From Halococcus morrhuae DSM 1307 (GTDB lineage: Archaea; Halobacteriota; Halobacteria; Halobacteriales; Halococcaceae), in assembly GCF_000336695.1 (NCBI RefSeq), contig NZ_AOMC01000123.1, forward strand, positions 1 to 47,580: a stretch of 47,580 nucleotides of DNA, in the 5' to 3' direction. The notes beneath the pieces are model-generated. The model saw only the letters and a list, made by a program, of their open reading frames with translations, had not been told where the DNA came from and did not search any database. Below are positions 31,864 to 47,580 of this stretch, piece after piece. A program made the translations under genes and the position numbers. Numbering within the stretch: position 1 is the stretch's first letter; every line of letters begins with the position of its first letter.

Positions 31864-33261
31864 CTACTCCGAGACCTGCGAGAGCCACTCCTCGGCACGG
31901 CTCTCGGGGATCTCGGCGGCGTCGGCCACCGTTTCGACGTCGGCGGCCGCGAGATCGCCGGTCGTCTCGATCCCTGCGTCACGCAGGCGATCGGCGTAGG
32001 TCGATCCGATACCAGAGACGCTCTCGACGTCGTCCACGTCCCCCTGATCGTCGGTCGTTTCGTCGGTGTCGTCGTGGATGCTGGTCGGCTCCTGCGTGTC
32101 GACCGCCTCGTCGGCCGCGTCGCTCGCGTCGTCGATCTCGATCTCTTTGGCGTCGTCGAGCTGCGAGCGCTCCTCGTACCACTCGCAGACCTCGGGCCAG
32201 ACGTTTTCGTGGGAGCTCCCCGAGACCGAGAGGCCGATGTGACCCGTCGAATATTCGATGACCTCGGTGTCATCGCTGCCGATGACCTCGTTGAACGGGA
32301 TGCTCGTCTCCGAGGGGATCAAGTGGTCGTACTCGCCCGTGATCTGGAGAACGGGCATGTCGATGTTCTCGATATCCACGTGGGTGTCACCCAGGTAGAG
32401 CTCGTTGTTGTAGAGCTTGTTCTCCTGGTAGATATCCGTGACGAACTGGGCGAACGTGTCGCCGGCGACGTCGATCCCCTCAGAGAGCCAACGCTCCATC
32501 CGCCCGAAGTTCTCGATGAAGTCGTCGTTTTCGAGGTTGTCGTAGAGACGGACGTACTTCGAGACGTAGTTGGAGACGGGATCCATCAGCGCGAAGCCGA
32601 CGTCGAGCATCTCCGCCGGCGCGTTGCCGTAGGCGTCTTTGAGTTCGTCGGGCGAGAAATACTGGTCGTCGCCCCAGAGTTCGAGCACGCCGCCCGTATC
32701 GTCGAAGCAGAGCCCCGCGGCCATCAGCCCGAGGTTCCGGACCTTTTCGGGATTGAGCGCGGCGTACATCGCCGACATCGTCCCACCCATGCAGTAGCCG
32801 AGGACGTTGATCGCGTCCTGGTCCGACTGCTCGCGCACTTCGTCGACACAGTTGTCGATGTATCTGGTCACGTAATCTTCGAGCGTGAGATGCTGGTCGA
32901 GCCGTGAGGGCTCGTTCCAGTCGATCATGTAGACGTCGAAGCCCGCCTCCAGCAGCCGTCGGATCACCGACCGATCGGGCTGGAGGTCGAGGATGAACGG
33001 TTTGTTGATCAGCGCGTAGATGACCAGGATCGGGACGTCGTGCTGCTCGTCCGTCCGCGGCTCGTAGTGCAGCAGTTCGAGCTTGTTCTCCGTGTAGACG
33101 ACCTCGCTGTCGGTCTGGCCGACCTCGACGGAGGCCATCTGAGCGAGCTGTTCGGGGGCGATCTCGGTCTTCTCGATCGCGTCGGCGGCGGCTTCGAAGC
33201 TCTGACGCTGGGCATCGAGGCTCAGCGAGAACGGGTCGAAGGCCGAAGGGCGCTCGCTCAT
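31864..33261 (-). CDS. phaC: Class III polyhydroxyalkanoate synthase subunit PhaC with helix-hairpin-helix tail
   Basis: The protein has 465 residues. The alpha/beta-hydrolase core has the synthase box GYCMGG with Cys157, Asp312 in TGEYDHLIP and His341 in [11 protein letters not shown]. It polymerises 3-hydroxyacyl-CoA with PhaE on the granule surface. After about residue 370 there is an acidic linker and then [20 protein letters not shown] followed by [20 protein letters not shown], a helix-hairpin-helix (RadA/Pol-beta type) domain, residues about 413-463. Such tails are extra compared with bacterial PhaC and could bind nucleic acid or proteins. The stop codon of phaE abuts the start with no spacing, so it is coupled. 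Confidence 0.95.
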
Positions 33262-33813
33262 CTACTCCTCCAGGAGCCGGTCGAGTTTCTGCGAGACCTC
33301 GTGCTGGCGGCGTTCGAGCTCGATCAGCCGCTCGGCCACCTCGTCGACGTCGTCACGGGTGGCGAAGCCGAGGCTCTCCAGGGTGTCCTGGCTCATTTCG
33401 TCGACTTCCTGCTGGAGCTCCAGCATGTCGCCGACCAGTTCGCCGGTGCCGGCGGCGAAGGCCGTCGTCCCCATCACCTCCGAGAACGCCTCGTTGGCGC
33501 TCTGGAGCCAGATATCGCGGAACTCGCTTACGTCGACGTCCTCGCCCTCGGCGGCGTCGGCGATGCGCGAGTTCATCCGCTCGGCAGCCTCAACCCAGAC
33601 CTCGTAGGCACGGCCGTAGCCCGCCATGCCGTCCTCGACGGTGTCGGGATCGGGTGTGGAATCCTCGAACGCGCCCATCCACGACTGCATGAACGCGGAC
33701 TGGGCCTCCATGTTCTGTTCGAACGACTCGGCGACCGCGTCGTTCATGTCGTTCATCATCGTCGTCCAGCGCTCCTGGATCTCCTCGGGATCGGTGTCGC
33801 TCATACTGCTCAT
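33262..33813 (-). CDS. phaE: PHA synthase subunit PhaE (haloarchaeal)
   Basis: The protein has 183 residues, all helical and acidic: NDMNDAVAESFEQNMEAQSA, FMQSWMGAFEDSTPDPD, VWVEAAERMNSRI, then DIWLQSANEAFSEVMGTTAF. A coiled-coil end DDVDEVAERLIELERRQHEV fits PhaE, which pairs with PhaC as the class III synthase. Haloarchaeal PhaE is shorter than bacterial PhaE, as seen here. The ATG at 33813 is used; another lies at 33804. It sits 31 bases downstream of phaP. Confidence 0.92.
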   Translation of the reverse strand: MSSMSDTDPEEIQERWTTMMNDMNDAVAESFEQNMEAQSAFMQSWMGAFEDSTPDPDTVEDGMAGYGRAYEVWVEAAERMNSRIADAAEGEDVDVSEFRDIWLQSANEAFSEVMGTTAFAAGTGELVGDMLELQQEVDEMSQDTLESLGFATRDDVDEVAERLIELERRQHEVSQKLDRLLEE

Positions 33814-33844
33814 TGGTGTGGTTGTCTGAAAAGTCTATGTCCGC

Positions 33845-34513
33845 TCAGGCCGAGACCTGCGTCTCGAACTGCTCGGCCTGCGCTTCGAGCTGTTCCTGGA
33901 ATCGTTCGACCTGCGACTGAAGCTGCTCCTGAAACTCCGTGGCCTGTTCCAGCTGACGGTCTGACTGTGCCTCGAACTGCTCCTGGATGTCGGCCATGCG
34001 CTCGGCCTGCTCGTCGAGCTGGCTCCCGAAGCGCTCGGCGAACTCCTCGTTGTGCGTCGCGGTCTGCTCGACCATCTCGACCGTCCCCTCCTGGAGCTGT
34101 TCGTGCGCCGCGAACAGTTCGTCCATCCCCTCGTCCATCGCCGTGACGGACTCCTCGGAGAGTTCGTCGTGACCGTCGAGGGCTTCCTCGACGGACGCTT
34201 CGAGCTGGTCGAAGCTCTCGGCGTGGAGCTCCTTCAGCCGGTCGAACCCCTCATCGGCGTTCTCGCGGAACGCCCGGACGTTCGTGCCGGCGGGCGTCGC
34301 GGTCTCCATCGCCTCGAAGTAGCTCTCGACGGCGGTTTCGGCGGCTTCGACGCCCTGGCGCTGGAACGTCTCCTGGCTCTCGATGCCCGAGAGCAGCATC
34401 TCGCCGGCGTTTCGCTGGAGATCGAACCCCTGCTCGACGGCCCGCTGGCTCTGCTCCAGAACTGTGCGCTGCATCGCGAACGTCGCTTCGATCGGTGTGG
34501 TGTACTGGTTCAT
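33845..34513 (-). CDS. phaP: PHA granule phasin PhaP (haloarchaeal)
   Basis: The protein has 222 residues with long amphipathic helices and Gln/Glu-rich heptads: FAMQRTVLEQSQRAVEQGFD, RFGSQLDEQAERMADIQEQF and LEQATEFQEQLQSQVERFQE. It coats PHA granules to control size and number. It is homologous in position and character to PhaP of Haloferax mediterranei. The ATG at 34513 overlaps the phaR stop by 4 bases (ATGA), so translation is coupled. The longer frame upstream is spurious. Confidence 0.92.
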   Translation of the reverse strand: MNQYTTPIEATFAMQRTVLEQSQRAVEQGFDLQRNAGEMLLSGIESQETFQRQGVEAAETAVESYFEAMETATPAGTNVRAFRENADEGFDRLKELHAESFDQLEASVEEALDGHDELSEESVTAMDEGMDELFAAHEQLQEGTVEMVEQTATHNEEFAERFGSQLDEQAERMADIQEQFEAQSDRQLEQATEFQEQLQSQVERFQEQLEAQAEQFETQVSA

Positions 34514-34818
34514 GAGTCCTCCCTGTTTCGCTTGACGGGGACGACGACCGTCTGGACGATGTCCCCCTCCTCGATGTCGAGCGCCTCGCGCTCGGCGTCG
34601 GGGATCGAGATGCGCCCGCCGCTCTGGACGCGCGTCTTGAACGTCGCCGTCCCCATACTCGTGGCGGCGATCTCCGACAGACTGCTCGGCCCCGATCCGC
34701 CGGCGTTCATCAACTGTTTGGCGAACTCCGTCTGCTGCTCGACGGCCTGCTCGCTTGCCTCTTGGAACTGCTGTGCCCACAACGCCGGCGGCCACGTCGC
34801 GTCGTCTTCGTCGGTCAT
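34510..34818 (-). CDS. phaR: AbrB-type regulator PhaR of the pha operon
   Basis: The protein has 102 residues: a helical N-terminus (LWAQQFQEASEQAVEQQTEF) and a C-terminal SpoVT/AbrB swapped-hairpin barrel, RVQSGGRISIPDAEREALDI followed by EEGDIVQTVVVPVKR. In Haloferax mediterranei PhaR binds the phaRP promoter, represses its own operon and also associates with granules. Its position as first gene of phaR-P-E-C matches. The ATG at 34818 is chosen; upstream sequence in frame covers the promoter. Confidence 0.9.
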   Translation of the reverse strand: MTDEDDATWPPALWAQQFQEASEQAVEQQTEFAKQLMNAGGSGPSSLSEIAATSMGTATFKTRVQSGGRISIPDAEREALDIEEGDIVQTVVVPVKRNREDS

Positions 34819-42856: not shown

Positions 42857-43209
42857 CGTCGCGACTGCATCAGGCCCCATCGCTCGAAAAGCGCCGAGAA
42901 CGATCCAATAAAGCGACGATGGACGGCATGAAACCGACGTGGCGTGGTCCGCGTGCGAGCGAGCTACCCTGACGGATTTCTCTTCTCGCCGCGTTCTCCA
43001 CGTTCGTTTTCGAGTCCTGGAGCATCGACGAGCGCCGGCTCCAGTCGGCGATCGAGAGCCGTCGATGGCGATGAACGATCGGCTGAAACCGTCACGTCGG
43101 AAAGTCAACTTTCTGCGGGAAGTGTGTTCTTCTATTCAATTTCTCCTATTCTATTGTAGTTTCTTCCCAGGAATTGATTTGAGACGGAAGTTATAAGTCA
43201 TTCCGTGAT
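42857..43209 (+). promoter_or_regulatory. Upstream region of xsc
   Basis: No gene is seen in these 353 bases. The distal part is ordinary GC-rich sequence; 43127-43200 is distinctly AT- and pyrimidine-rich with repeated TTCTATT-like words. TTATAA at 43190-43195 is the likely TATA element. Its spacing places transcription start near 43218, past the ATG at 43210 and before the ATG at 43234, so the latter may be the true xsc start. Confidence 0.45.
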
Positions 43210-45021
43210 ATGGATGCAAGTGGGTCGAACGGAATGTCACGACAGCAAGCACCACCACCGACCGAGGACGCACCGCTCCACGAGGGTGAGACGATGTCGC
43301 CGAGCGAGGCGCTGCTCGAACAGTTCGTCGCCGAGGACGCCGACGTGATGTTCGGGATCGTCGGCTCGGCGTTCATGGACTTCCTCGACATCATGCCGCA
43401 GGCGGGTATCCGCTACCTGCCCGTGCGCCACGAACAGAACGCCGCCCACATGGCCGACGGCTACGCCGAAGCGCTCTGTGGCCGCGAACCGGGCATCTGC
43501 GTCGCCCAGAACGGTCCCGGCGTCACCAACATGGTCACGGGCATCAAGGCCGCCCAGCTCAACCACTCGCCGGTGATCATGCTCTCGCCGGCCGCCACCA
43601 CGGGCTCGATCGGCACCGACGGGTTCCAGGAGGCCGACACCATGTCGATCTTCGACGAGTGCGTCGACTGGCAGGGCCGTCTCGAAGACAACAGCCGCGT
43701 CGCCGAGTACGTGCGGACTGCCTATCGCGAATCGCTGACCGAGATGGGGCCCACTCAGATCGACTTCGCCCGCGACCAGCTCTACGGCGAGATCGAGACT
43801 GACGTACTCCAGCCGAACCAGTATCGCCAGGAGCGCATCGGGTCGGCCGACGACTCGAAGGTGAGCGAGGCCGCGACCATGCTCTCGGACGCCGACAACC
43901 CGGCGATCATCGCCGGCCTCGGGACGATCTACTCGGACGCGATCGACGAGGTCGCCGACCTCGCCGAGGAGTTGAACGCCCCCGTGGCGAACTCCTACCT
44001 CCACAACGACAGCTTCCCGATCAGCCATCCCCTCGCCGTGGGCGCGCTGGGCTACGGCGGCTCGAAGGCCGCGATGGAGACGCTCTCGGAGGCCGACTGC
44101 GTGCTCGCCGTCGGCAGCCGTCTCAGCGGCTTCGGTCTCCTGCCCCAGTACGGGATGGACTGGTTCCCCGAGGACGCCGACGTCATCCAGATCGACGCCG
44201 ACGCCTCCCAGATCGGGCGCACCACGCGCGTCGAGTTGGGCTTGGTCGGCGATGCCGCCGAAACCGTTCGCGGCCTCGCCGGCGATCTCGATGCGTCCGC
44301 CGGTGCGGACGACTCGCGCGTCGAAGAGATCGAGCAGGCCTACGCCGACTGGAAGGACGAACTCGAAGAGATGTCCCAGTCGGATCAGGCCCCGATCCAC
44401 CCGCGGCGCGCGCTCTGGGACGTCGCACAGGCGCTGCCCGAGAACACGATGGTGGCGACGGACATCGGCAACACCTGCTCGATGGCCAACGCCTACCTGG
44501 AGTTCGACAATCCGGGTAACTTCCTCGCCGCCGGCACCTACGGCAACTGCGGGTTCGCCTACCCAGCGGCCATCGGCGCGAAGGTCGCCCGACCCGACGA
44601 TCCCGCAGTGGCGCTCGTCGGCGACGGCGCGTGGGGCATGCAGTCGATGAACGAGATCATGACCGCCGTCCGCGAGGACATTCCGGCCGTCGCGGTCGTG
44701 TTCAACAACATGGAGTGGGGTGCCGAAAAGCAGAACCAGTACTGGTTCTACAACGACCGCTTCGTCGGCACCGATCTGCCGGAGAACCCCGACTTCGCCG
44801 AGATCGCCCGCGACATGGGCGCACACGGCACGCGGGTCAAGGATCCGGACAACATCCAGTCGGCGATGACCGACGCGCTCCAGTCGGGCGAGCCCGCCGT
44901 CGTCGAGATCATGACCGACGGCACCGAACTACTCGAACCGTTCCGCCGCGACGCGCTCGACGATCCCGAGCGCGTTCTGGAGAAATACCGCCAGCCCGGC
45001 GACGCCAACTACGAGGGCTGA
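43210..45021 (+). CDS. xsc: Sulfoacetaldehyde acetyltransferase Xsc
   Basis: The protein has 603 residues. It matches characterised bacterial Xsc across the whole length: [34 protein letters not shown] (catalytic TPP Glu75), [59 protein letters not shown] and [18 protein letters not shown]. The TPP-Mg site is GDGAWGM...[12 protein letters not shown], and the end is [20 protein letters not shown]. It converts sulfoacetaldehyde and phosphate to acetyl phosphate and sulfite. The ATG at 43234 is a second candidate start, given the TATA element. pta follows 41 bases downstream. Confidence 0.95.
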
Positions 45022-45062
45022 GCCGGCGGCGGTCACCGATCGTCACCGCATCCGAACCACCG

Positions 45063-46127
45063 ATGAGCCTTCTTTCACGACTTCGCGAACAAGCACGGAC
45101 GGCGAGCCCGCGCATCGTTCTCCCCGAAGCCCACGACAGCCGCGTGCGCGAAGCGGCCGTCAGAGCTGCACGCGACGGCATCGCCGAGCCAGTGCTGCTG
45201 GATACCGACGAGGGATCGCGAGCACTGTGTGCCGAGCACGACCTGTCGCGGGGCGCACTCACCGTTCTCGATCGTTCCGACGAACGGATCGAGGAGGACG
45301 CCGCCGCGTACGCCGCGCTACGCGATGTGCCCGTTTCGGCCGCAAAACGCGTGCTCGACGACGAGTTGGTGCTCGGGGCGTGGCTCGCGCGCACCGGCGA
45401 GGCCGAAGGATTGGTCGCCGGCGCGACCCATCCAACCGCCGAGGTGGTCGCGACGGCCAACGGGATCATCGGTCTCGATCCGCTGGTCGACACCGCGTCG
45501 AGCTACTTCCTGATGGCGTTCGACGATCCGACCATCGGCGAGAACGGCGCGCTGCTCTACGCCGACTGTGGGGTGAACATCGACCCGGACGACGAACAGC
45601 TGGCGGACATCGCGCTCGCGACCGCAACGACAGCCGAGAAGCTCCTCGGCTGGGAGCCGCGGGTCGCGATGCTCTCGTTTTCGACGAAGGGGAGCGCGAG
45701 CCACGAGACCGTCGACGAGATCCGACGGGCGACGGAACTGGCCCGCGAACGGATGGACGGGCTCTGCATCGACGGCGAACTGCAGAGCGACGCGGCGCTC
45801 GTCCCGAGCATCGCCGAACGGAAGAACGGGGATGCGAGCGTCGTCAACGGCGACGCGAACGTGCTCGTCTTTCCGGATCTGAACGCGGGCAACATCGCCT
45901 ACAAGCTCACCGAACGGCTCGCGGGCGCGACGGCGCTCGGCCCGGTGCTGCAGGGCTACGCGCGACCGCTGAGCGATCTCTCGCGCGGCGCGAGCGCCGA
46001 CGATGTCTACGATATCGTCACGATCACGGCCGCCCGCGCCGCGGCGAGCGAGGGGTTCTCCGACGGGACGATCCTCGAACGCGGGCAGTTGGCTCGACGC
46101 GAACAGGAGCCGCCGCGCCCTGAGTGA
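45063..46127 (+). CDS. pta: Phosphate acetyltransferase
   Basis: The protein has 354 residues, a single PTA_PTB domain without the long bacterial N-terminal regulatory part. Motifs are [77 protein letters not shown], and the acyl-phosphate/CoA site [20 protein letters not shown] followed by [19 protein letters not shown]. It converts acetyl phosphate and CoA to acetyl-CoA. Its place 41 bases after xsc supplies the obvious reason: it captures the acetyl phosphate that Xsc releases. Most haloarchaea make acetate with ADP-forming acetyl-CoA synthetase, so pta here is likely tied to sulfonate use. Confidence 0.95.
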
Positions 46128-46633: not shown

Positions 46634-47548
46634 CTACTGCTGTTCCGACACCGGCTGTCGGGTCTCCTCCATCGTGGTCTCGGTCGTCGATCGCCGTGAG
46701 AGCGCGAACAGCACCGCGCCGAGGACGATCCAGGCGACGACGATCGCCCACTCGCGCGGCCAGAGCAGCGCCGAGGGCGCGCCGGGCATGTAGAGCCCGA
46801 TGAAAAACAGCGTCACGACCATCGCGGCGATGCCGAAGGTGTAGCCACCGGGAAGCTTGAACGGCCGCTCCATCTCGGGTTCGTTGTAGCGCAGCGCGAC
46901 GAACGACACCGCGACGGTGAACCAGGCGAGCACGATCCCGAGCGAGCCGGCGTTGATGATCGAACTGACGAAGTTGCCGCCGAACCACGGGGCGGCCATC
47001 GAAAGTGCGCCGATGAGGACGATCGCGCGCGAGGGCGTGTTGTACTCGGGGTGGACCGTGGCAAGCGACTCCGGCAGGAGCCCCGAATCGGCCATCGCGA
47101 AGACGATGCGGCTCGCGCCGATGACGAACGCGCTCCAGCTGGTGAGCAGCGCGCCGATGCCGACGATCGTCATCAGCTTGCCCGCCACGGTGCTGCCGAA
47201 GATCGCGCTCATTGCCGTCGCGGCCGGCACGAGGCTATTGCCGAGCGCGCCCGCGGCGACGGCCCCGCCGGCCGCCCAGATGCTGACGATGTAGAACAGG
47301 CCGACCGTCGCGACGACGGCGAGCACCACCAGCGCGAGCGAGCGCGAGGACATGTCGGCCTCCTCGGCGGCCTGTGGCACGACGTCGAAGCCGACGAACA
47401 GCATTGGTACTTGGATGGCGACGGTCGTGATCCCGAGCGCCGGCGCGCCGCCGAAAGCCGCGTTCGAGACCGACGGTCCGACCGTGAGCGAACCCGTCAC
47501 GAGCGCGATGCCCGAGATGGCGATGACCGTCGCGAGAACGAGCTGTAC
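46634..47548 (-). CDS. APC-family amino acid permease, 5' end missing
   Basis: There are about 304 genuine residues with at least seven membrane helices, e.g. ALVVLAVVATVGLFYIVSIW, and the APC signature PQAAEEADMSSRSL with GFDVVPQAAEE typical of YjeH/GabP-like transporters. The first residues obtained if the frame is read to the contig end (MYKRQ) derive from the adapter at 47549-47567 and are not protein. The true N-terminus, about 150 residues, lies beyond the contig. Its place next to xsc-pta, convergent, would suit uptake of taurine or a related aminosulfonate; this is inference. Confidence 0.85.
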   Translation of the reverse strand, partial: VQLVLATVIAISGIALVTGSLTVGPSVSNAAFGGAPALGITTVAIQVPMLFVGFDVVPQAAEEADMSSRSLALVVLAVVATVGLFYIVSIWAAGGAVAAGALGNSLVPAATAMSAIFGSTVAGKLMTIVGIGALLTSWSAFVIGASRIVFAMADSGLLPESLATVHPEYNTPSRAIVLIGALSMAAPWFGGNFVSSIINAGSLGIVLAWFTVAVSFVALRYNEPEMERPFKLPGGYTFGIAAMVVTLFFIGLYMPGAPSALLWPREWAIVVAWIVLGAVLFALSRRSTTETTMEETRQPVSEQQ

Positions 47549-47580
47549 CTGTCTCTTATACACATCTCTGAGCGGGCTGG
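47549..47580 (-). other. Sequencing adapter contamination (Tn5 mosaic end and Nextera primer)
   Basis: CTGTCTCTTATACACATCT (47549-47567) is the exact 19-base Tn5 mosaic end used in Nextera libraries. CTGAGCGGGCTGG (47568-47580) matches the start of the older Nextera primer sequence as I remember it. Genome ends at 47548. Confidence 0.97.

Follow-up and report, generated by a model that had tools for sequence, protein, structure and literature searches.

The 47,580-nucleotide window analysed here spans all of contig C123 in genome G000, a Halococcus. It holds a gene assigned to xsc and, 41 bases further along the same strand, a pta gene (Table 1). The sequence-only reading had described a full-length Xsc followed by a short Pta, and ORF coordinates and family models agree with this, although the start of the Xsc frame has to be moved. 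The ORF runs from 43210 to 45021 (603 aa), and its residue 9 is a Met (ATG 43234) common to all eight haloarchaeal Xsc proteins compared in the alignment. Because that Met is common to the eight, translation of xsc probably begins there and not where the ORF opens. Upstream of it L015, L021 and L022 diverge, the Halococcus copies are alike, and L016 and L019 are partly so. A TATA-like box lies 37 bp before this ATG and is likely the xsc promoter.

Table 1. Features of the xsc-pta locus, with Thi4 genes near xsc at other haloarchaeal loci
Feature	Position	Strand	Details and basis
TATA-like box TTATAA	43191..43196	+	sequence and GC; 38% GC stretch 43109-43209
xsc, sulfoacetaldehyde acetyltransferase	43234..45021	+	595 aa, conserved Met at 43234; family models, tree, alignment
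pta, short stand-alone phosphate acetyltransferase	45063..46127	+	ATG 45063, 354 aa; family models
APC-family amino acid permease, 3' part	46634..47548	-	~residues 166-470 of G157 homologue; cut by contig end
Presumed Nextera adapter sequence, assembly artefact	47549..47567	.	near contig end
Thi4 thiazole synthase gene	L019 11978-12904		homology
Thi4 thiazole synthase gene	L016 8525-9490		homology
Thi4 thiazole synthase gene	L022 4376-5308		over TIGR00292 cut-off
Thi4 thiazole synthase gene	L047 14854-15783		homology

Curated models and phylogeny both mark the window Xsc as a genuine-looking sulfoacetaldehyde acetyltransferase, with its catalysis predicted. The protein scored above the cut-offs of TIGR03457 (699.2 bits, cut-off 676.4) and NF005713 (732.6 bits, cut-off 620), and reached only 382.7 bits with the best acetolactate synthase model, whose cut-off is 866. 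It carries RHEQNAAH at residue 73, GDGAWGMQ at 471 and FNN at ~498-500, which we take to be motifs of a TPP enzyme. At the place of FNN, four bacterial Xsc proteins have HN or RN and a Rhodococcus opacus homologue has NN, and the TPP motif of the window protein contains a one-residue insertion relative to six other aligned rows. The nearest named relative found is Halococcus thailandensis JCM 13552 (98% identical over Xsc); identity of Xsc is 95-99% within the genus and at most 48% to the bacterial homologues fetched.

A tree of 22 rows, comprising eight haloarchaeal and nine bacterial sequences and five G000 paralogues, was built from 22 supplied loci, of which L007 yielded no row and five of the six G000 paralogue loci were recovered. 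The haloarchaeal proteins form a single clade (100/100) and share a 100/100 branch with the nine bacterial homologues, outside which the five paralogues fall. Long branches were flagged by the program for the paralogues and are also seen in the Rhodococcus opacus row, which lacks annotation; in the best tree the nine bacterial homologues do not group as a single clade. The sequence-only reading had named a grouping with acetolactate synthases as the outcome that would speak against Xsc; no such grouping appeared when the protein was set against the five G000 paralogues, and on model scores and tree together we reject an acetolactate synthase. The bacterial homologues come exclusively from a plasmid collection, where nine of 168 non-Halomarina records were picked by hand from the matches listed; five are annotated xsc and four have no annotated gene there. 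No bacterial donor of the haloarchaeal Xsc was found among these plasmid-borne homologues, and a scan of genome contigs for xsc returned three haloarchaeal loci.

Columns that are invariant in the nine bacterial homologues and absent from the five paralogues were treated as diagnostic, and the window Xsc keeps 27 of these 36; when the paralogues are omitted one at a time, the omitted one has 3-9 of 39-45. The nine residues that differ, the TPP-motif insertion and the distance from the bacterial homologues would all suit an Xsc-like protein whose catalysis has shifted to another thiamine-diphosphate reaction that also makes acetyl phosphate, with Pta just using the product. So would the TIGR03457 scores of the class sample described below, in which five of seven Xsc proteins are over the cut-off and two (G324, 672 bits; G029, 671 bits) lie just under it. 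We nonetheless consider such a shift very improbable, in view of the window protein's own scores and tree placement and of the gene for SauS, a family defined on sulfoacetaldehyde, that adjoins xsc in three other haloarchaea.

The window Pta matched PF01515 at 314.8 bits and exceeded the cut-off of the broader phosphotransacetylase model NF007233 (316.4 bits, cut-off 310), while falling under that of the equivalog TIGR00651 (289.3 bits, cut-off 311.2). In a class sample of 391 haloarchaeal genomes, drawn from a larger group, xsc was found at E<=1e-150 in seven, including four of the nine sampled members of the genus. A stand-alone Pta closely similar to that of the window (E<=1e-60) occurs in eight of the 391, six of them among the seven xsc genomes; the hypergeometric value for this co-occurrence is 4e-11, uncorrected for kinship, and since the four xsc genomes within the genus are close kin, such values overstate independence and the counts are weakened. 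The xsc genome without a close stand-alone Pta is the MAG G339, and the two xsc-less genomes that have one are G191 and G001, at 46-48% identity. The G191 relative (L119, G191:C3:189331-190311) has one in-frame TGA within the match.

These distributions bear on the earlier statement that haloarchaea usually lack Pta and AckA, which survives in a narrower form. In its plain form the absence of Pta is ruled out, the PTA domain PF01515 being present in 387 of the 391 genomes, mostly in frames of ~750 aa or more among the matches listed. Six of these long-frame domains branch apart from stand-alone Pta (100/100), and malic enzymes with PTA among the PDB matches suggest that the long frames are malic enzyme fusions. 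What does hold is that a close stand-alone Pta is missing from 383 of the 391 and that AckA is absent from 11 of the 12 haloarchaeal genomes searched, with G000 among those lacking a match. In the twelfth, MAG G339, the acetate kinase gene (L016 4073-5260) adjoins xsc and may provide an alternative use of acetyl phosphate. The haloarchaeal Pta proteins linked to xsc fall into a single clade (96/93; 23 loci supplied, of which L139 and L141 yielded no rows), and xsc and pta are co-inherited in haloarchaea. The suggestion that pta beside xsc was acquired or retained as a working unit is supported by the stand-alone Pta in six of seven xsc genomes.

The source of sulfoacetaldehyde had been placed outside the window. 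This is correct as far as the window goes, because the contig ends, but a candidate transaminase and an alanine dehydrogenase (AlaDH) are found on the next contig, C124. The window closes within an APC-family permease gene and a presumed Nextera adapter sequence, so the terminal minus-strand ORF opens with the adapter-derived residues MYKRQ. The N-terminal 95 aa of the permease are encoded at the opening of C124 (L044 3-287), followed by AlaDH, an Lrp/AsnC-type gene and a class III aminotransferase. The same order is seen in G157, where a single contig carries xsc-pta and then the permease, AlaDH, Lrp-type regulator and aminotransferase, and on which the gap between C123 and C124 maps as 208 bp. 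G236 is split equivalently between contigs C149 and C150, and in G209 the aminotransferase block lies on the xsc contig, inverted and ~7 kb beyond pta. The AlaDH is of the archaeal OCD/mu-crystallin type and scored 369.7 bits, under the curated cut-off of 409.15. Two further genes of C124 were left out of the unit proposed below: an AMP-binding ligase (L044 4866-6836), present only in the genus among the loci compared, and a UspA gene (L044 4403-4822), which belongs to a common family, though relatives lie near xsc in G209 and G029.

The aminotransferase matched the class III family PF00202 at 275.3 bits and has FAKG at residue 274, presumably the class III lysine motif. It is a candidate for the taurine aminotransferase that the sequence-only reading had advised looking for in the rest of the genome. 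Its best PDB match, among 36 PDB sequences at E<=1e-50, is the taurine:2-oxoglutarate aminotransferase Toa (6jix; 220.2 bits, the next 202.5), which is a modest lead over GABA and omega-transaminases, but no curated cut-off was reached among its best 25 models (best NF004718, 369.7 against 472). Relatives at E<=1e-150 occur in 87 of the 391 class genomes. The five at 68-100% identity are all in xsc genomes, and the other 82, at 65% or less, are in genomes without xsc at E<=1e-150. A tree of 35 rows took in 26 of these 82 xsc-less genomes, three remoter sequences from xsc-less Halococcus and six xsc-linked proteins, and the six form a clade (100/99) apart from the 29 of xsc-less genomes. At eight positions the six share a residue that none of the 26 closer relatives from xsc-less genomes has. 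At residue 312 the xsc-linked clade has Asn and 25 of those 26 have His; Toa, the closest PDB sequence yet a distant one, also aligns His. Halomarina has a 78.7% identical homologue 9.7 kb from xsc, and the clade seems to travel with xsc across Halococcus, Halomarina and G324. In two of the seven xsc genomes, G029 and G339, no aminotransferase of this kind is found even at E<=1e-40.

We propose a model where xsc-pta is the core of a Halococcus taurine-dissimilation unit that continues on C124, and assign it a probability of roughly 0.7. The sequences show that Xsc and Pta belong to their families and are linked and co-occurring, which genes follow one another on both contigs, and that the aminotransferase clade is inherited together with xsc. 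Taurine, the substrate that we infer, would enter through the APC permease, a candidate importer. The class III aminotransferase would then transfer the taurine amino group to a keto acid, yielding sulfoacetaldehyde, and the OCD/mu-crystallin-type AlaDH would regenerate pyruvate and release ammonium. Xsc is predicted to use thiamine diphosphate and phosphate in converting sulfoacetaldehyde to acetyl phosphate and sulfite, and Pta would carry acetyl phosphate on to acetyl-CoA, G000 having no acetate kinase match. The Lrp/AsnC-type protein is probably the regulator of the unit.

Neighbours of xsc at other loci could point to a different source of sulfoacetaldehyde. An Fe-alcohol dehydrogenase gene lies upstream of xsc in G157, G209 and MAG G339, and SauS over its curated cut-off adjoins xsc in Halomarina, G324 and G029. 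With Xsc and Pta real, sulfoacetaldehyde could thus come from isethionate or sulfoacetate through an enzyme encoded elsewhere, and the aminotransferase and AlaDH could serve a different amino acid, linked to xsc by chance or shared regulation. The xsc-less Halococcus G073 has a relative of the aminotransferase, ~60% identical, that adjoins an alanine dehydrogenase, so such pairs can serve other substrates. We find this account unlikely, as G000 has no match to the Fe-alcohol dehydrogenase at E<=1e-40 or to SauS at E<=1e-120, and the aminotransferase clade tracks xsc across lineages. The Fe-alcohol dehydrogenase of G157 reached 231.2 bits with the model of the sulfoacetaldehyde reductase SarD (cut-off 700) and scored higher with ErcA (256.0 bits), choline dehydrogenase (251.1) and lactaldehyde reductase (238.2), so entry from isethionate is a guess. 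SauS at E<=1e-120 occurs in 14 of 354 genomes, seven over the cut-off; xsc is present in three of the seven (G324, G029 and G339, in the last of which the two lie on different contigs) and absent from the other four, and SauS is a weaker marker of xsc than hoped.

The Fe-alcohol dehydrogenase is missing from G236 as well as from G000, and xsc itself is patchy in both genus and class. Such a pattern could be left by a unit that was imported recently or is decaying and that plays no part in the physiology of the cell, an idea that we find barely credible: the frames are open and conserved, as the identity of Xsc within the genus attests, the GC of the unit is similar to that of the contig, and the linked genes are retained in four members of the genus.

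No sulfite enzyme or exporter linked to xsc was recognised next to the gene in the window or in L044 (C124). Other xsc loci have a molybdo-oxidoreductase that gave no match at E<=1e-60 in any of the nine members of the genus, G000 included. Proteins with PF00174 and TauE are present in all 12 genomes searched, regardless of xsc, and so are not diagnostic. Contig C74 of G000, unlinked to xsc, encodes a sulfite-oxidase-like protein that scored 218.8 bits with the SorT model, under its cut-off of 570, and shows by eye a twin-arginine-like N-terminus. Close to this gene (L157 413-6566) are those for a cytochrome b561/molybdopterin-domain fusion and a SLAC1-family channel, and the cluster is a possible candidate for sulfite export and oxidation.

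Beyond the genus, the vicinity of xsc in Halomarina and G324, and partly also in MAG G339, encodes the molybdo-oxidoreductase and an adjacent FeS protein, which in Halomarina is a fusion with NrfD; in G029 the enzyme is encoded elsewhere in the genome. It is also found on plasmids of Natrinema halophilum and Rhodococcus jostii, in stretches compared that lack xsc, so the label sulfite dehydrogenase is one that we infer. The xsc stretches of Halomarina, G324 and G029 hold class III CoA-transferase and TctC-like genes (TctC by Pfam in G029), together with genes in Halomarina and G029 that we take, from their position, to be TctA-like. Halomarina and G324 have both SauS and the taurine-type aminotransferase. 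Because the neighbours of xsc differ between loci, a modular sulfonate hub is suggested, in which Xsc-Pta is surrounded by interchangeable modules for entry and exit. It is tempting to see a haloarchaeal organosulfonate system, a view to which we lean with some reserve, in which the core is joined by lineage-specific entries: for taurine, transaminase and archaeal AlaDH; for sulfoacetate, SauS, class III CoA-transferase and a Tct-type transporter; and for an alcohol (isethionate), the Fe-alcohol dehydrogenase. Some lineages would add acetate kinase or a SoeABC-like sulfite-oxidising molybdo-enzyme. If this is true, archaea would return sulfonate sulfur in hypersaline settings on their own. Xsc requires thiamine diphosphate, and a Thi4 thiazole synthase gene lies within ~12 kb of xsc in four haloarchaeal genomes.

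Xsc-based sulfonate dissimilation is known mainly from bacteria. The proposed Halococcus unit has a reaction set equivalent to that of the bacterial taurine route through Tpa, Ald, Xsc and Pta, but with an archaeal-type OCD/mu-crystallin AlaDH, an aminotransferase clade outside curated models, an APC permease in place of TauABC and no linked sulfite gene. On plasmids of Sinorhizobium meliloti and Paracoccus ferrooxidans, in the order tauABC-(FAD oxidoreductase)-xsc-exporter-pta, xsc is likewise accompanied by pta and amine-entry genes, whereas in Halococcus transamination is proposed and no exporter gene separates xsc from pta. The sulfoacetate pathway (SauS-Xsc-Pta) has the Xsc-Pta core in common with Halococcus, and SauS lies by xsc in the three haloarchaea named above, in contrast to G000, with its lack of a SauS match. 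In a sponge symbiont, Ald is described as one that replenishes pyruvate for Tpa and Pta as taking the acetyl phosphate of Xsc to acetyl-CoA (PMC10356861).

In the open literature, outside which most subscription journals fall, we found no paper describing a haloarchaeal xsc. A figure legend lists xsc among the genes surveyed in DPANN archaea (PMC8091004), and passages of another paper mention haloarchaea for sugar metabolism only (PMC12965863). Halococcus has been recovered from fish sauce, which contains taurine (PMC6780869), so a natural setting exists. In brines, taurine could be food for haloarchaea, and the unit would explain why these few among them keep a stand-alone Pta. More broadly, the co-inherited Xsc-Pta core and the candidate entry genes found with it in several lineages of haloarchaea would widen sulfonate dissimilation to brine archaea. 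Elsewhere in the window, genes at 31864-34818 resemble a polyhydroxyalkanoate synthase cluster, judging by their sequence.
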